Part shown: positions 15,167 through 22,569 of the stretch, piece by piece
Numbering within the stretch: the first letter of the stretch is position 1
Layout of the letters: each line of letters begins with the position of its first letter
Assembly (NCBI RefSeq): GCF_000022065.1
Contig: NC_011898.1
Location: 3,537,501 to 3,601,500 of the forward strand
Direction of reading: 5' to 3'
Origin: Ruminiclostridium cellulolyticum H10
GTDB taxonomy: Bacteria; Bacillota; Clostridia; Acetivibrionales; DSM-1351
Length of the DNA: 64,000 nucleotides
Made by a program: the position numbers and the translations under genes
The notes under the pieces: model-generated
Seen by the model: the letters and a program-made list of their open reading frames with translations, nothing else
What the model was told of the DNA's origin: nothing
Database searches by the model: none

Positions 15167-15244
15167 TAGGTTAAAGTAATAATTGTACTACTTATATTTT
15201 TGCTTAGATATTTTGTAATATTATTTTTTATGGAGGTATCCACT

Positions 15245-16255
15245 ATGTCAATTAACGGTAAGAGTTTAAAGAATATTCCGTGGCAAGATAAACCTCTCGG
15301 CTGTAATAGCGTTATATGGAGACACAAAGGGAATCCCATTATCGTCTGGAATCCTACACCTAAAACAGCAAGGATATATAATAGTTCTGTAGTTCCCTGG
15401 AACTCAGGCTTTGCAGGTATTTTCAGAGCAGACCACAAAGACGGTAAAGCTCAAATCCATGTTGGATTCAGCAGTGATGGGGTTAATTGGAACATTGAGG
15501 ATGAGCCTATAGTATGGCATGATGAGGATGGTAATCTGTATCAGCCTAACTATTCGTATGACCCCCGGATTGTGGAATTGGAAGGTATTTATTATATTGT
15601 CTGGTGCACAGACTTCGGTGGGGCCTCTCTGGGCCTAGGTGTCACAAAAAACTTTAAACAGTTTACACGTCTTGAAAATCCTTTTATACCTTTTAATCGT
15701 AATGGTGTTTTGTTTCCACGCAAGGTAAATGGTAAATACTTACTTTTAAGCAGACCCAGCGATACAGGTCATACACCTTTCGGAGATATTTTCATAAGCG
15801 AGAGTCCCGATCTTGTTCACTGGGGACGTCACAGACGTGTAATGCAAAAAGGAGGTTCAGGGTGGTGGCAAAGTGTAAAAATAGGAGCAGGTGCGGTTCC
15901 TATCGAAACAACGGAAGGCTGGCTTCTCTTTTACCATGGTGTTTCAGGAACCTGTAATGGCTTCGTATACAGTTTTGGTGCGGCAATTCTGGACATTGAA
16001 ATCCCTTCTAAAGTTCTTTACCGCACAAGAGATTATCTTCTCACCCCCGAAATGTCATATGAAACATCAGGTTTTGTACCTAATGTGGTGTTCCCTTGTG
16101 CTGCACTGCACGATTCTGAGACTGGCAGAATCGCTATTTATTACGGTGCCGCCGACACATATTCCGCTCTTGCATATGCAAAGGAAGATGAATTAATAAA
16201 CTTTATTAAATCAAATTCCGAGTTGCTGCCAGGCGATGCGGAGGAATATAGATAG
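15245..16255 (+). CDS. GH130 glycoside phosphorylase (mannooligosaccharide phosphorylase-like)
   Basis: 336 residues from ATG 15245 (GGAGG upstream; earlier ATGs lack one). The five-bladed propeller of family GH130 shows in NSGFAGIFRADH, SYDPRIVELEGIYYIVWCTDF, FPRKVNGKYLLLSRPSDTGHTP, KIGAGAVPIETTEGWLLFYHG and IYYGAADTYSALAYA. GH130 enzymes cleave beta-mannosides with phosphate to give mannose 1-phosphate. It resembles the Ruminococcus RaMP2 group acting on beta-1,4-mannooligosaccharides, but subfamily and linkage cannot be settled by reading. First of three genes in the operon. Confidence 0.88.
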   Translation: MSINGKSLKNIPWQDKPLGCNSVIWRHKGNPIIVWNPTPKTARIYNSSVVPWNSGFAGIFRADHKDGKAQIHVGFSSDGVNWNIEDEPIVWHDEDGNLYQPNYSYDPRIVELEGIYYIVWCTDFGGASLGLGVTKNFKQFTRLENPFIPFNRNGVLFPRKVNGKYLLLSRPSDTGHTPFGDIFISESPDLVHWGRHRRVMQKGGSGWWQSVKIGAGAVPIETTEGWLLFYHGVSGTCNGFVYSFGAAILDIEIPSKVLYRTRDYLLTPEMSYETSGFVPNVVFPCAALHDSETGRIAIYYGAADTYSALAYAKEDELINFIKSNSELLPGDAEEYR

Positions 16256-16272
16256 CAGGGAGGCGTAAAGTT

Positions 16273-17481
16273 ATGGATGATAAATTAATTAATAAACTGG
16301 TTAACGAACTGGAGACCGAACTCAGGAATGACATTTTGCCGTTTTGGATTAATAACGCCGTTGATACCGACAATCGCGGGTTTTACGGCTTAATATCATC
16401 TGACCTTACCATTGATAAAACTCACGCAAAAGCAGCCGTATTGAATGCGAGAATTCTATGGACATATTCAAAGGCCTACAGTCGTTATAAGGAAGGAAAG
16501 TATTTTTTCATGGCAGAACGTGCATATAATTATATAGTTGACTTCTTTATCGACAAAGTAAATTCAGGTGTATACTGGCTTCTGGATTATAAGGGCAATG
16601 TCCTAAACTCAAAAAAGCAGACTTATGCAATTGCATTTGCAATCTATGGTTTATCAGAATTTTTCCTTGCAACAGGCAGAAAGGAAAGTCTAACTAAAGC
16701 TATAGAGCTTTATAACGCATTGGAAACTCATACATGGGATTGTGTAAACAAGGGATACTATGAAGCACATACAACGGATTGGCAGCCTCTTGCCGATATG
16801 TCTCTAAGCCCTGCGGATATGAATGTTTCAAAGTCAATGAACACCCACCTCCATATTATAGAAGCCTACACAAACCTGTACAGGGTTTGGAAGGATGCCA
16901 GACTAAAATCAACTCTAGAAGAGATTATCAATATTACAATTAATCATATAATAGACCCTAAGAAACATTCCTTTAATCTGTTTTTCGATGAAAAATGGAA
17001 TCCTGTTTCTGAAAAAATATCCTTCGGACATGATATTGAGGGCAGCTGGCTTTTATGTGAGGCAGCCGAAGTCCTTGGCAACAAAGAATTAATTAAAAGA
17101 GTAAGTGAAATCTCCGTAGCGATGGCTCAAAGAGTGTATAACACAGGCATTGATACCAAGTATGGAGGTCTTTTTTACGAACAGGACAAAAATGTTATTG
17201 AAACGATTAAGGACTGGTGGCCCCAGGCAGAAGCAGTTGTGGGTTTCTCCAATGCATATCAGCTGACAGGCAACGACTGCTTTATGATTGAAGCTGTTAA
17301 TACGTGGAGTTTCATTAAAGCACACATTATTGACAAGGTTCATGGTGAATGGGTCTGGGGAACTTCCGCAGACGGATTAAATGTCACAAACAATGAAAAA
17401 GCAGGCCCGTGGAAATGTCCTTATCACAACAGCAGAATGTGTTTTGAGATTTTACAGAGATTCAAAAAGCGAAAGTCTTAG
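16273..17481 (+). CDS. Cellobiose/mannobiose 2-epimerase (AGE superfamily)
   Basis: 402 residues, an (alpha/alpha)6-barrel of the N-acylglucosamine 2-epimerase superfamily. Family blocks are RGFYGLI near residue 36, TYAIAFAIYGLSEF, SKSMNTHLHIIEAYTNLYRVW, SFGHDIEGSWLLCEAAE, DWWPQAEAVVGF and GPWKCPYHNSRMCFEIL, with the histidines expected for proton transfer. Sandwiched between two GH130 genes, it most likely turns beta-1,4-mannobiose into mannosyl-glucose, the substrate of the next enzyme. An acylglucosamine epimerase is less likely in this context. A gap of 17 bases from the first GH130 indicates one transcript. Confidence 0.88.
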   Translation: MDDKLINKLVNELETELRNDILPFWINNAVDTDNRGFYGLISSDLTIDKTHAKAAVLNARILWTYSKAYSRYKEGKYFFMAERAYNYIVDFFIDKVNSGVYWLLDYKGNVLNSKKQTYAIAFAIYGLSEFFLATGRKESLTKAIELYNALETHTWDCVNKGYYEAHTTDWQPLADMSLSPADMNVSKSMNTHLHIIEAYTNLYRVWKDARLKSTLEEIINITINHIIDPKKHSFNLFFDEKWNPVSEKISFGHDIEGSWLLCEAAEVLGNKELIKRVSEISVAMAQRVYNTGIDTKYGGLFYEQDKNVIETIKDWWPQAEAVVGFSNAYQLTGNDCFMIEAVNTWSFIKAHIIDKVHGEWVWGTSADGLNVTNNEKAGPWKCPYHNSRMCFEILQRFKKRKS

Positions 17482-17505
17482 AAATAATATCAGGGAGGCT
17501 CTTGT

Positions 17506-18696
17506 ATGGTTTTTGATGAGAGATTGAATTATTTTATCCAAAAATATAATGGATTGATTAAAAGAAAAAACTCCGTTCAAGAAGGCGGAAACGGCATATA
17601 CGATAAATACATATATCCTGTAATAACCAAGGACCACACACCTCTTTTCTGGAGATATGACCTTGACAGGAATACTAATCCCTATCTTATGGAACGCCTC
17701 GGCGTCAATTGTGCTTTCAACCCGGGAGCTATTGAGCTTAACGGGAAAATATACCTTGTAGTACGTATAGAAGGGAACGATAGAAAATCCTTCTTTGCAG
17801 TGGCTGAAAGTGAAAGTGGCATTGATAACTTCACTTTCTGGGATTACCCTGTGGTAATGCCGGAAACAAAAAACCCTGATATCAATATATATGACATGAG
17901 GCTTGTAAAACATGAGGACGGTTGGATTTACGGTCTTTTCTGTACAGAGAGAAAAGACCCGGAGGCTGCCTGCGGCGATACCTTCAGTGCAGTAGCGGCA
18001 TGCGGCATTGCTAGAACTAAAGATTTAAAATTATGGGAGCGTTTGCCTGATTTGAAAACAGCATCACCTCAACAGAGAAATGTGGTCCTTCACCCAGAGT
18101 TCATAAAGGGAAAATATGCCCTTTACACACGTCCTCAGGACGGCTTTATCGAAATAGGAAAGGGCGGCGGAATAGGATTCGGTTATACCGACAGTATGGA
18201 AAATGCTGTTATATATGAAGAAATACTGATGGAATGCAAGGAATACCACACTATTAAAGAGGTCAAAAACGGCCAAGGGCCCACCCCTTTGAAGACTGAA
18301 AAAGGCTGGCTTCACATTGCCCATGGCGTAAGAAATACGGCTGCCGGACTAAGATATGTTGTATATGCCTTTCTTTCCGACCTTGAACATCCCGAAATTG
18401 TAACCCATCGTCCGGGTGGCTTTTTAATCGCTCCTGAAGGTGAAGAACGAATCGGGGACGTTTCAAATGTGGTCTTCTGTAACGGTGTTGTAGCCAGACA
18501 AAACGGAGATGTTCTTATTTACTATGCTTCCTCCGATACACGTTGCCATGTAGCTTCTACCACTATAGACAAGCTTCTGGACTATGTCATTAATACCCCG
18601 GAGGACCCTCTAAGATCCTATGCATGTGTGCAGCAGAGAATTGACCTGATTTCAAGAAATTTGAGGCTGATTAAGAATAACACTGTTTCTGTGTAA
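17506..18696 (+). CDS. 4-O-beta-D-mannosyl-D-glucose phosphorylase (GH130)
   Basis: 396 residues. From memory of the Bacteroides/Ruminococcus mannosylglucose phosphorylase family (EC 2.4.1.281) the resemblance extends over the whole length: YPVLTxxHTPxFWRYDL-type start ([20 protein letters not shown]), [77 protein letters not shown] and [13 protein letters not shown]. It would split mannosyl-glucose into mannose 1-phosphate and glucose. GGGAGG lies before the ATG. With the upstream epimerase it completes the phosphorolytic route for mannobiose. Confidence 0.92.
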
Positions 18697-18736: not shown

Positions 18737-19489
18737 CTAGTAAGGGTAAACCAATTCATTCTCCGGCTTCTGTGCAGGAGTAACGGATATTGCGTAGAGT
18801 ATGGGCATTTTCTTTTTCATGTGAGGCTCGTACTCTACTTTTATTTTAGCGGTAACATAAACCCACTCGCCGTTTCTCCACTTTTCGGCATCCTCATATC
18901 TGCACATGAAGCCATACGGTACAAGGTCTGCGGCACAGCATACCATTGACATACGGGCGGGAACAAACTCATTGCAGCTAAACCTCTCCATACGGAATAC
19001 CACACCTTTGATTTTCACTGTCCTAGAGTTGTATTTATCAGGGTTCTTACTGGCTTCAGTGTACCACTTCAAATATTCATCATCACTTATATTAATTATA
19101 TGAGCATCACCCTTAACCTGTGTTTCAGACGAATTTTTGCCCCGTTTTTGCTGTATTTGCCCCGTAGCGGAGGAAACTCCAGTGTACCCATTTCCAGTGC
19201 TGATATGGGCAGTTTCAACAGGAGCTGGCGGTATTATAATGCCTGCAAGTATAGGAATTGTCAGAATAACACAAGGGAGTATACTATTTCTTCGTTTCGG
19301 TTTAAACAAACCGGGCAGCAGAGACAATGCAATAATTATAACCCCTGCTGCCGAAAACCATATATACTTTATCATGTGTATGTTGACATAATATTTTATT
19401 TTACCTCCCGCAACAGCATGAAGCAGTAAAGCAGCCATTAATAATAAAACTGTTAACTGTGCAAGAACCTCTCTGTTCAATCTTTTCAT
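18737..19489 (-). CDS. TIGR03943 family membrane-anchored protein (YcgQ-like)
   Basis: 250 residues: two N-terminal membrane segments (about 10-28 and 40-60), a third at 70-88, then an extracellular domain with KWYTEASKNPDKYNSRTVKIKGVV and CNEFVPARMSMVCCAADLVPYGF, whose Cys residues may bind metal. The family is typically encoded beside a DUF318-type permease and belongs to the Zur regulon in B. subtilis (ycgRQ). Here it is the last gene of the operon, 11 bases after the fusion gene, so a zinc-uptake role is the best guess. Confidence 0.82.
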   Translation of the reverse strand: MKRLNREVLAQLTVLLLMAALLLHAVAGGKIKYYVNIHMIKYIWFSAAGVIIIALSLLPGLFKPKRRNSILPCVILTIPILAGIIIPPAPVETAHISTGNGYTGVSSATGQIQQKRGKNSSETQVKGDAHIINISDDEYLKWYTEASKNPDKYNSRTVKIKGVVFRMERFSCNEFVPARMSMVCCAADLVPYGFMCRYEDAEKWRNGEWVYVTAKIKVEYEPHMKKKMPILYAISVTPAQKPENELVYPY

Positions 19490-19500
19490 AATCCACTCCG

Positions 19501-21075
19501 CTATATAATTGGTGCTGTGATTGAAAAAATGAAAACCGCAATAACTATAAGTATTGAAGCCAGCTCTATCAGAAATTTCTTTTTGAAGCCTGCTGACAGC
19601 ATTAGCAAATTTTTTAAATCAAGCATAGGCCCCATTACCATATAGCACACTACCGAATACATGGGAAAACTGTAGGAAAAGCCTTTTGCAATAAATGCGT
19701 TGGAAGTAGAGCAAACCGACATAAATATCGCCGCCCCCAGCATTGCCAATAGTCCCATGGAGCGGCTTACCCCTGCTGTTGAGAACAGTTCTCCTGATAT
19801 AAAAGTCTGTAGTCCCGAGGTAATGAAAGCTCCCACTACTATGTAGCTTCCCACATTAAAAAACTCCATTCCTGCGTGTCTTATAAGCATCCCTAACTTA
19901 CCGGCAAGTCCCTCCTGTGAAAAATCTCCCAGATAGCCTCCCGTACATGGCGTATCCAGTATTGTTTCTTTTACAGCATATTCTTTTGAAACCCCCGCAA
20001 ATTTTACAAACAATCCTACCGACAATGCCACCGCAATACCTAATCCTACTCTCATTAATACAACTTCCGGTTTATTTTGAAAAGCATAATATGTAGATGT
20101 AATTACCACGGGATTTACTACAGGAGCACTTAACAGAAATGTCAATACATAGTATAGCGGAACCCCTTTTCCGGCAAGCCTTGAACATACCGGAGCCATG
20201 GCACAGTCACATACGGGAAAGAAAATTCCCATAATCACAGCTGCGGGAAAGCCTGCCCATTTAAAACGGCTGAACATCCCTACAAGCTTTTCATCTGATA
20301 TAAATATCTGTAAAAAGGATGAAATAAATATCCCTATCAATATGAACGGAAGTGCCTGAATCAGAATACTTAGAAACACAGTTATAAAGGTGTGTATTTT
20401 TTTGAAATCCCCCGTAAAACCTGTATTCCTGACTGATATAAGGAAAAAATAAACTACAAGTAAAAGAGTGATTATTAGAAAATTCCTGATATCTTTTTGA
20501 AATCCCTGTGTTTCGAAGCAATGGACTTTTTCCTTGTTGTCTATAATTCTTTTATAATATATAATTTTCGCCTGTCTGTTAACAGCCTTTATAGCTCTTT
20601 TTATATTTGTTTTCTCCAACGTTCCCAATAATTTATCACGGTTCAGGATAACAACATCGCTGTTTGAAATCTGCTCAATTATTAATGACTTCATATTGCT
20701 CATGTACAATTCAAAGGTCGACGCATCAGCAATAAAAACTATCTTACTTATACAACAGCCGGATGGCAGCCGGATCCTTAAAAAATCTCCTATTGGCCAT
20801 GTTCCGTTATATTCTATAAGAATCCTGTCAGGGGCATACTCCTCAACAATAGAGCTTATGAAGCCTCTGTCCAGTATATGTATATCGTTAACATAAATAA
20901 GTGTAGTATTGTACCTCTTTAACACACTCTCCCTGTATTCTTCATATCCCTGTTCACAGCATATCAATACCGTTTTATTACCATATGTGCTCTGCTGACT
21001 TTTTAATAGATTTTGTACGAATGTGGTTTTGCCGGATTCAAGGAATCCTCCTATTATACTTATTTGTATACTCAC
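19501..21075 (-). CDS. COG0523-type GTPase domain fused to a DUF318/COG0701 permease
   Basis: 524 residues. Residues 1-190 form a CobW/COG0523 P-loop domain: Walker A GGFLESGKTT (9-18), ILIEYNG (85-91), and a degenerate base-recognition motif NRDK (145-148) instead of NKxD. The CxCC metal motif of the family is absent. Residues 195-524 are a permease with about eight to nine membrane segments and the signature PVCDCAMAP (287-295) and SAPVVNPVV (316-324). The stop of the neighbouring GTPase and this start are two bases apart. The reading frame is open throughout and the gap-free linker argues against sequencing error. Probable metal transport; the substrate is inferred to be zinc. Confidence 0.85.
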   Translation of the reverse strand: MSIQISIIGGFLESGKTTFVQNLLKSQQSTYGNKTVLICCEQGYEEYRESVLKRYNTTLIYVNDIHILDRGFISSIVEEYAPDRILIEYNGTWPIGDFLRIRLPSGCCISKIVFIADASTFELYMSNMKSLIIEQISNSDVVILNRDKLLGTLEKTNIKRAIKAVNRQAKIIYYKRIIDNKEKVHCFETQGFQKDIRNFLIITLLLVVYFFLISVRNTGFTGDFKKIHTFITVFLSILIQALPFILIGIFISSFLQIFISDEKLVGMFSRFKWAGFPAAVIMGIFFPVCDCAMAPVCSRLAGKGVPLYYVLTFLLSAPVVNPVVITSTYYAFQNKPEVVLMRVGLGIAVALSVGLFVKFAGVSKEYAVKETILDTPCTGGYLGDFSQEGLAGKLGMLIRHAGMEFFNVGSYIVVGAFITSGLQTFISGELFSTAGVSRSMGLLAMLGAAIFMSVCSTSNAFIAKGFSYSFPMYSVVCYMVMGPMLDLKNLLMLSAGFKKKFLIELASILIVIAVFIFSITAPII

Positions 21076-21076
21076 A

Positions 21077-22009
21077 TTAAACTCCCGTAAAAAGTTTTTT
21101 TAACTCCCCTGTATTGAGCTTTTCACCGATAACACAAATTCGCCCCGTATAGTCAGGCAAGCAAGGCTTAATGCTGATTTCACCCGGTACAAAGTCAAAC
21201 TGTATCCAGCTGTCTTTTTGTAGCGGAATTATTCCCTTTGACCTCATTATATTCCCATACAGTGCTTTATCGGACAGCAACTGCAATATACCTCGTATAC
21301 CTTCGTCAGTATATTGTTTTGGTGTCTCAACTCCCCAGCTTTGAAATATTTTATCGGTTTTTGTATGCCTGTGCAGCCTGTTTTCAGGCGGATTTACTAT
21401 ATTTATGCCTCCGCCCTGTTCTGAAAGAGATATAATATTCTTACTCTTTAATGCCTCCCAATTTGTAGTTACGACATTTGCCTTAGGATTACGGTTTTGA
21501 ATATCATTTACCACTTTGGAAATCTTATTTTGCTCCATCATTTGTGTTCTGCTTAAAATAACGGTTTTTGCATTTTTTATCTGATCCTGAAAGAATTCTC
21601 CGAAATTGTTAACATAAATTATATATTTAACTGCATCTACAACGGCTATACACATATTTACTTTAGCATCTGCCTGCTTTTCAATCTTCTCGCAGGCCTC
21701 CAACACTCCCGAAAGCTTACCTACTCCTGATGGTTCGATAATAATTCTGTCAGGCGTATATTTGCTTAGAACCTCCTTGAGAGCCGTAGAAAAATCACCA
21801 ACCAGCGAGCAGCAGATACAACCCGAATTGATTTCTTTTACCTTTATGCCGGAATCTCTTAGAATTCCGCTGTCAATACCTATTTCACCAAATTCATTTT
21901 CTATTATTACAACTTTTTCAGAGCCTAATTTTTCTTTCAGAAGCTTCTTTATCAGCGTTGTCTTTCCCGCACCAAGAAAGCCCGAAACTATATCAATTTT
22001 AACAGACAT
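21077..22009 (-). CDS. COG0523 (CobW/YciC/ZagA-like) metal-chaperone GTPase
   Basis: 310 residues. Walker A GFLGAGKTT (10-18), the switch block ENEFGEIGID (37-46), the metal motif CICCS (64-68) and IIIEPSGVG are all intact; a C-terminal CobW_C domain ends the protein. These GTPases deliver zinc to client proteins under zinc limitation. It opens the operon with the fusion permease and TIGR03943 genes and diverges from a Fur-family regulator, which supports metal-responsive control. The base-recognition motif appears as LSRTQM, not NKxD, as in a number of COG0523 members. Confidence 0.9.
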   Translation of the reverse strand: MSVKIDIVSGFLGAGKTTLIKKLLKEKLGSEKVVIIENEFGEIGIDSGILRDSGIKVKEINSGCICCSLVGDFSTALKEVLSKYTPDRIIIEPSGVGKLSGVLEACEKIEKQADAKVNMCIAVVDAVKYIIYVNNFGEFFQDQIKNAKTVILSRTQMMEQNKISKVVNDIQNRNPKANVVTTNWEALKSKNIISLSEQGGGINIVNPPENRLHRHTKTDKIFQSWGVETPKQYTDEGIRGILQLLSDKALYGNIMRSKGIIPLQKDSWIQFDFVPGEISIKPCLPDYTGRICVIGEKLNTGELKKLFTGV

Positions 22010-22137: not shown

Positions 22138-22569
22138 ATGGATAAAAATGTTTTAAAATTCTCAGACCTGAAAACAACAAAACGACGCATGGCAATACTC
22201 GCAGTACTGGAGAATTCTGCTTTACCTATGACGGCAGAAGAAATTTATTCAAGGGTTATAAATGATGTTCATATGAGCCTATCAACCGCCTACAGGACTC
22301 TTGGGACTCTTTCCGAAAAAGGAATACTATTAAAAAACCTTAGTCAGGACGGAAAAACATATTATCAGATGAACAGCCATCAGCACAAGCATCATCTGGT
22401 ATGTACCCTGTGCAATTCAACCGTACCTATTGATGATTGTCCGCTGTCCAAGATAGAGGAAAATCTCATACAACAGACAGGGTTTACAATTACGGGACAC
22501 AGTCTGGAGTTTTCCGGAATATGCCCCAAATGTTCCAAACACTCCTCTGATGCAGGTTTTAACGATTAG
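22138..22569 (+). CDS. Fur-family metalloregulator (probably Zur)
   Basis: 143 residues from ATG 22138, with AGGAG upstream; an ATG earlier in frame lies inside the promoter. The winged helix includes TTKRRMAILAVLENS and STAYRTLGTLSEKGIL. A histidine-rich hinge (HQHKHHLVCTLC) and two CxxC pairs (CTLC, CPKC) form the structural zinc and sensor sites. Divergence from a COG0523 GTPase and a YcgRQ-like pair argues for Zur rather than Fur or PerR. The last 11 bases overlap the end of the convergent GNAT gene. Confidence 0.87.
   Translation: MDKNVLKFSDLKTTKRRMAILAVLENSALPMTAEEIYSRVINDVHMSLSTAYRTLGTLSEKGILLKNLSQDGKTYYQMNSHQHKHHLVCTLCNSTVPIDDCPLSKIEENLIQQTGFTITGHSLEFSGICPKCSKHSSDAGFND

Follow-up and report, generated by a model that had tools for sequence, protein, structure and literature searches.

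A conserved fusion of a CxCC-less G3E-type domain to an ArsP_1 permease, encoded beside an intact COG0523 GTPase and very probably linked to zinc, in Ruminiclostridium cellulolyticum H10 and its relatives

The 64,000-nucleotide stretch of the Ruminiclostridium cellulolyticum H10 genome analysed here (NC_011898.1, positions 3,537,501 to 3,601,500; hereafter the window) holds three tightly packed genes on the minus strand, running from 22009 to 18737 and encoding in this order an intact COG0523 protein, a fusion of a CxCC-less G3E-type domain (hereafter psi) to an ArsP_1 permease, and a TIGR03943 membrane protein (Table 1). The COG0523 stop codon and the GTG start codon of the fusion frame lie one base apart, and a Fur-family regulator, a candidate Zur, is encoded divergently. 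This regulator scored below the NCBIfam cut-offs of all the named subfamilies listed, including the PRK11639 Zur model (23.3 bits versus a cut-off of 167). Three sugar-metabolism-like genes on the plus strand (15200–18696) adjoin the operon; two of them, judged by eye, are presumably GH130-like mannoside phosphorylases placed around an epimerase. The third gene and the regulator, as well as the E-x-N-G motif and the zinc context described below, come in addition to the initial annotation of the locus.

Table 1. Positions in the window of the genes, domains and motifs of the fusion locus.
Feature	Position	Strand	Basis or remark
Fusion gene: CxCC-less G3E-type domain (psi), linker helix and ArsP_1 permease	19501..21075	-	524 aa; stop codon included
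psi domain, residues 1-175 of the fusion	20551..21075	-	Pfam cobW and AlphaFold model
ArsP_1 permease part, residues 227-519	19519..20397	-	PF03773
Walker A GGFLESGKTT, residues 9-18	21022..21051	-	Fusion sequence
E88-Y-N90-G91 (E-x-N-G motif)	20803..20814	-	Separates psi from the E-x-S-G of intact partners
Linker transmembrane helix, residues 196-214	20434..20490	-	Hydropathy
PVCDCAMAP, residues 287-295	20191..20217	-	C289, D290 and C291 candidate metal ligands
Intact COG0523 partner, 310 aa, with CICC and CobW_C domain	21077..22009	-	Pfam scan and sequence
CICC, residues 64-67 of the intact partner	21809..21820	-	Partner sequence
TIGR03943 membrane protein, 250 aa	18737..19489	-	NCBIfam TIGR03943, 166.7 bits, cut-off 88.8
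OB-fold C-terminal domain (DUF1980_C) of the TIGR03943 protein, residues 123-246, with MVCCAAD	18752..19123	-	Pfam DUF1980_C
Divergent Fur-family regulator, candidate Zur	22138..22569	+	PF01475, 95.3 bits

The initial annotation had proposed, with no strand given, that a single frame joins a CobW domain to a permease, and a Pfam scan bore this out on the minus strand, where cobW (PF02492) matched residues 5–172 (E = 3.4e-12, 46.7 bits versus a cut-off of 20.7) and ArsP_1 (PF03773) residues 227–519 (E = 1.8e-51, 175.5 bits versus 32.3). The motifs that it had listed were all found as well, namely the Walker A motif, PVCDCAMAP and NPVV (residues 321–324) in the fusion, no CxCC anywhere in its 524 residues, and the CICC kept by the COG0523 neighbour. 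CobW_C (PF07683) was absent from the fusion and present in that neighbour, and no FeoB domain was among the four Pfam hits of the fusion up to E 0.1. In an AlphaFold model built from 10 sequences (mean pLDDT 74, pTM 0.55), residues 1–193 take the G3E fold and a linker helix spans residues 190–216, with low confidence up to residue 198. The solved structures best matching the psi model were HypB, YjiA and UreG (Z 15.2 to 13.5), with 170 residues aligned to HypB (Z 15.2, rmsd 3.2) and 181 to YjiA (Z 14.9, rmsd 2.7), and Ffh/FtsY were also among the fold matches; a sequence search of the whole fusion against solved structures returned no match. Yeast Pho90, which came up as a fold relative of the permease (Z 11.3, rmsd 6.0, 292 aligned), was set aside because helical matches at this Z are unsafe.

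The fusion of the GTPase-like domain to the permease is real and conserved. It was found over nearly its full length, as a single open frame with no internal stop, in 16 of 60 genomes, that of R. cellulolyticum included, and in 9/9 named loci (Ruminiclostridium, Marasmitruncus, Clostridium ihumii and six Peptostreptococcus records), and this recurrence rules out a frame error as its source; the nearest named relative is Ruminiclostridium papyrosolvens (75% identity). As lower bounds, with at most three candidates scored per genome, a one-frame fusion was present in at least six of the 398 genomes of a phylum sample (G000, G338, G392, G439, G374 and G420), and a near-whole-model, stop-free fusion in at least 18 of the 393 genomes of a class sample, own genome included, rising to at least 20 after the loci of G547 and G638 were read. 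With the duplicates L049, L156 and L163 dropped, 36 distinct fused loci were tallied, many of them from related species and not independent. Thus the search in other genomes that the initial annotation had called for did not find the halves always encoded apart, but 36 loci with the fusion and nine with separate genes in one cluster. An alignment of 24 rows (A1) revealed nine invariant residues in psi (G10, G15, K16, T17, E41, G43, E88, N90 and G91) and nine in the permease (C289, D290, C291, P295, H400, E404, C455, D486 and N489), among which C289, D290 and C291 may serve as its metal ligands.

Comparison of the G domains separated psi from its intact neighbours by two motifs. CxCC occurred in none of 41 psi rows (29 permease-fused, 10 fused to the TIGR03943 C-domain, i.e. 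psi-OB, and 2 carrying a membrane helix at the C-terminus) versus 37/37 intact partners, while E-x-N-G occurred in 41/41 psi rows versus 0/37 partners, all 37 of which read E-x-S-G. Sixteen psi rows added later (7 separate, 7 fused and 2 psi-OB), chosen for lacking CxCC, all have the P-loop and E-x-N-G, so that altogether 57/57 psi rows, the 16 so chosen among them, are without CxCC and 57/57 carry E-x-N-G. The Walker A pattern was matched by 40 of the 41 rows, and the exception, GQLDSGKT, still fits GxxxxGKT. E-x-N-G is a real signature of the psi domain. The statement in the initial annotation that the domain had lost its metal motif holds for the absent CxCC but tells half the story, because psi keeps an invariant motif of its own; judged by this retention, psi appears to be more than a decayed domain. 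The NRDK in place of NKxD at the G4 position, also pointed out there, is indeed present, but it does not mark the fused domain as special: [NTS]KxD was found at G4 in 4/29 fused, 0/10 psi-OB and 0/2 tail-anchored rows and in 0/37 intact partners, 18 of which read SRTQ, as does the intact neighbour in the window, versus 9/10 COG0523 proteins from other loci. As the intact partners are without [NTS]KxD too, the G4 change belongs to the GTPase pair and not to the fusion. In a tree of 88 rows, from which loci L146–L178 were left out and in which the long branches L106, L060 and L102 are flagged, a branch with 100/98 support set off the 41 psi rows, and a different branch (90/62) set off the intact partners found at fused and psi-OB loci. 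We call psi COG0523-derived, a paralogue of the intact partner, and keep it outside COG0523 itself because CxCC is missing from the fusion in the window and from all 41 psi rows.

The gene company of psi was then compared among loci. A TIGR03943 gene lay within the fetched stretch at 36/36 fused loci, an intact CxCC COG0523 gene at 34 (exceptions L043 and L153), a Fur-family gene at 19 and a ZnuA or ZnuB gene at 16; since the fetched stretches differ in length, partner absences mean little, and the partner labels come from profiles built from hits inside these same loci, with the ZnuA, ZnuC and ZnuB query proteins picked by eye. Psi also occurs apart from the permease. At seven loci (family f28, L146–L152) the COG0523 gene is followed by a separate gene for a soluble psi of 209–218 aa and then by the permease gene, with intact COG0523 at 7/7; at two others (family f95, L108 and L109) a separate psi gene (208–214 aa, one C-terminal hydrophobic helix) sits downstream of permease and TIGR03943, with COG0523 at one of the two, none being found within the stretch of L109. 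Elsewhere in the Clostridia, psi and the TIGR03943 OB domain make up a single protein that has no strong hydrophobic segment, and 11 of the 12 distinct psi-OB proteins fetched have intact COG0523 in the stretch (exception L096, a second copy in G190). The class sample gave 77 matches in 71/393 genomes to the TIGR03943 C-domain in frames of 311–353 aa, the psi-OB length; these were hand-picked, and the composition was verified for the fetched ones only. Altogether, intact COG0523 was in the stretch at 53/57 psi loci (34/36 fused, 11/12 psi-OB and 8/9 separate), and the pairing of COG0523 with its psi paralogue is, by gene company, well supported. One genome (G756, loci L152 and L153) has a separate-gene set alongside a fused set. 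Downstream of TIGR03943, the six Peptostreptococcus loci (L041–L046) carry a gene of 816–854 aa, the product of which looks by eye like a papain-like protease that is secreted and has cell-wall-binding repeats.

A permease tree of 70 rows, made by a quick method with SH-aLRT only, placed the 36 fused rows and L107 in one clade (96) and the separate-gene lineages outside. The fusion looks derived because the permeases of the nine separate-gene loci fall outside the fused clade. L107 (4888–6003, minus strand) encodes a fused-clade permease without psi, and its protein start, SSFLDSGKNN, looks like a Walker A remnant. The simplest reading of this tree is that genes of a single cluster were fused once and that L107 later lost psi. 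In the 88-row tree, the 10 psi-OB rows are nested with 12 fused rows (100/99), which fits an origin of psi-OB by deletion within a fused operon, long branches being flagged there; psi-OB may also be the product of a second fusion. At the Bacilli-type loci L119, L120, L124 and L125, permease, TIGR03943 and COG0523 occur together and the stretch contains no psi; psi is thus not required everywhere.

The C-domain of TIGR03943 is, by its model, an OB fold (matches from Z 9.8 down), and it has a conserved Cys pair. Three hydrophobic segments were found in 46/52 TIGR03943 proteins, and the mean K+R per loop (1.74, 2.07, 3.43 and 1.13) predicts the OB domain outside, as was likewise predicted for short single-pass OB proteins. 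The 12 psi-OB proteins have a maximum 19-residue hydropathy mean of 0.71–1.36, i.e. no strong hydrophobic segment, which would place their OB domain inside. The predictions for the membrane side of this domain are thus contradictory. Eleven small membrane proteins of 152–224 aa (L164–L173 and L175) also carry the OB domain. Nine of them were read at sequence level, and each has a single N-terminal hydrophobic helix and no Cys pair; a gene resembling secA by eye was nearby in 4/6 neighbourhoods examined. At L174 (2563–4056, minus strand), inside a znuA-znuC-znuB run, a ZnuB-type permease continues in frame into a TIGR03943-like OB domain, with a lipobox-like stretch between the two, which gives a further link of the OB domain to zinc.

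Palindromes resembling AAATGCAAATNATTTGCATTT were found repeatedly ahead of znuA genes and, at L048, L052, L053, L057 and L058, also ahead of the fusion operon. Scanning 544,126 bases (47 loci) for AAATGCNAATNATTNGCATTT with up to 3 mismatches gave 23 sites, 21 of which lie upstream of a labelled gene (znuA in 11 cases, the COG0523 gene of a fusion operon in 5, fur in 3, and znuC and psi-OB in one each), versus one site, not upstream, for the reversed pattern in the same loci. The 21 of 23 is partly circular because the consensus was drawn from palindromes in these regions, and therefore the own genome of the window, scanned as one contig of 4,068,724 bases, was taken as an independent test. 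It holds seven AAATGCNAATNATTNGCATTT sites, six with 3 mismatches and the best with 1, and this best site ends 22 bases before the start of a ZnuA reading frame, the only PF01297 match in the genome. This only ZnuA gene, behind its Zur-type box and with two-component genes beside it, is a lone one, far from the best ZnuB-type gene (C1:1420091 and C1:3967185). At the operon in the window itself, no AAATGCNAATNATTNGCATTT box was found within 3 mismatches and none was seen in the aligned promoters; five of the 36 fused operons have one before the COG0523 gene. In Bacilli-type genomes, the permease of unfused pairs, or its operon, is preceded by a box close to TAATCGTAATNATTACGATTA, the Zur box of B. 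subtilis (L119, L120, L121, L124 and L125), and L118 has one before a znuA-permease-TIGR03943 run; znu and mostly COG0523 genes lie near permease and TIGR03943 at L118–L121, L124 and L125. Besides Zn, ZnuA-type proteins can also bind Mn; several ZnuA copies have His-rich loops, and zinc is favoured over manganese because of these loops and the Zur-type boxes. A link of the system to zinc is very probable, and zinc scarcity in particular is suggested by the ZnuA/ZnuB genes, the Fur-family regulator and the palindrome common to znuA and some fusion operons. Of the initial annotation, the metal theme and the intact COG0523 protein next door are supported; the gating of transport by nucleotide state that it put forward is a hypothesis.

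We give an even chance to the reading that COG0523, the psi-permease and TIGR03943 form a zinc-scarcity system in which psi docks the intact GTPase for handover of zinc in the cytosol. Here the permease would move zinc across the membrane, through a site made up of the invariant CDC and C455 together with acidic or His residues, and inward rather than outward transport seems likely. Psi, on the cytosolic face, would be the membrane-bound docking partner; the intact GTPase would pair with it, take zinc at the permease exit onto its own CxCC site, and be freed of it by nucleotide turnover. A functional pairing of psi with intact COG0523 is mildly favoured, and binding of nucleotide by psi is rather likely; import, the heterodimer, the zinc handover and the use of nucleotide by psi are all inferred. 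More tentatively, and with less than even probability, the whole could be a metal import machine, in which a soluble CxCC and a membrane-bound CxCC-less G3E NTPase pair up on a zinc permease as a heterodimer under nucleotide control and pass zinc directly from channel to chaperone, the pair being rebuilt as soluble psi-OB in many other Clostridia.

The same residues and gene company can be read in other ways. Psi might bind GTP and open and close its own permease as an autonomous gate like that of FeoB, the intact COG0523 protein only distributing cytosolic zinc and never touching psi. The P-loop invariant in 24/24 rows, the one-chain fusion and the FeoB precedent agree with such a gate, but psi is also found as a separate soluble, tail-anchored or OB-fused protein without permease and has COG0523 at 53/57 loci, so that the common denominator is the GTPase pair and not the permease, and we hold the gate to be unlikely. 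That psi is a relic, a mere folding or anchoring part with no function of its own, would suit the degenerate G4, the long branches and the loss of psi from the fused-clade member L107; it is most improbable given that Walker A, E41-x-G43 and E-x-N-G are invariant across distant rows and that psi survives in three other settings.

Direction and metal bear on the permease itself. To our knowledge, the ArsP_1 relatives of known direction are exporters, and the closest NCBIfam names for the permease are efflux families, far below cut-off, which counts against import. The permease might then expel zinc, another soft metal or a thiol-bound compound, with psi sensing the load; the weak similarities to the SO_0444 Cu/Zn efflux family (NF033936, 47 bits) and to SaoE (NF040736, 40 bits) stay far under the cut-offs of 300 and 325, and many loci have zinc-uptake-type neighbours and upstream boxes, which makes export improbable. 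A metal other than zinc (cobalt, nickel or iron), with the Fur-family regulator not a Zur, would accord with the service of COG0523 proteins to several metals, as described in the part of a review considered here (PMC9164220), with a regulator that reaches the cut-off of none of the NCBIfam families listed and with an operon without a box in the window; set against the His-rich loops of ZnuA and the Zur-type boxes at relatives, it is quite improbable.

The docking reading has parallels in known systems. COG0523/G3E GTPases (YciC/ZagA, YjiA and CobW), of which the partner in the window is one, share the G3E P-loop fold with psi, whereas psi is without CxCC and CobW_C, carries E-x-N-G and is joined to a permease in one chain. 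FeoB has an N-terminal G domain and then a Fe2+ permease in one chain, the same architecture as the fusion in the window (G domain, then metal permease); the fusion differs in its permease family and in its second, intact GTPase, and the G domain of FeoB presumably belongs to another class than psi. We regard the finding as a FeoB-like joining of GTPase and permease, with another class of G domain and paired with an intact GTPase, apparently not previously described as far as we found. The signal recognition particle and its receptor, two paralogous P-loop GTPases with one at the membrane, as proposed for the psi pair, pass a ribosome, where the psi pair would pass zinc. B. subtilis YcgR/YcgQ and streptococcal ScfAB are, judged by name, presumably permease and TIGR03943 in kind, and we know of no psi domain in either; a TIGR03943 gene was found in B. 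subtilis as a search control.

In the part of the source considered here, FeoB is given as an iron permease (PMC9164220). CxCC was used as the COG0523 family mark, in a zinc-scarcity context, by Haas 2009 (PMC2770081), the main text of which has 0 occurrences of 'fusion', 'fused' or 'permease', and the parts considered of two reviews (PMC9164220 and PMC8000910) do not describe the psi-permease fusion. No published description of it was found in a search mostly within journals outside subscription, nor any literature on TIGR03943 alone or on COG3689 with COG0701. The linked Streptococcus genes for ScfA (8 predicted TM) and ScfB (2 predicted TM), which also occur in Enterococcus and Bacillus, are described as of unknown function, and no metal role is proposed in the part of that paper considered (PMC5584981).

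The comparison defines a family of paralogues that is diagnosed by E-x-N-G together with the lack of CxCC; the Pfam cobW model lumps this family with true COG0523. A zinc role becomes testable for the pair of permease and TIGR03943, of which the streptococcal ScfAB has an unknown function in print (PMC5584981). The fusion is a natural case of a likely zinc permease tied covalently to a family of metallochaperone GTPases, and it could serve to test whether COG0523 proteins take up metal directly from a transporter.
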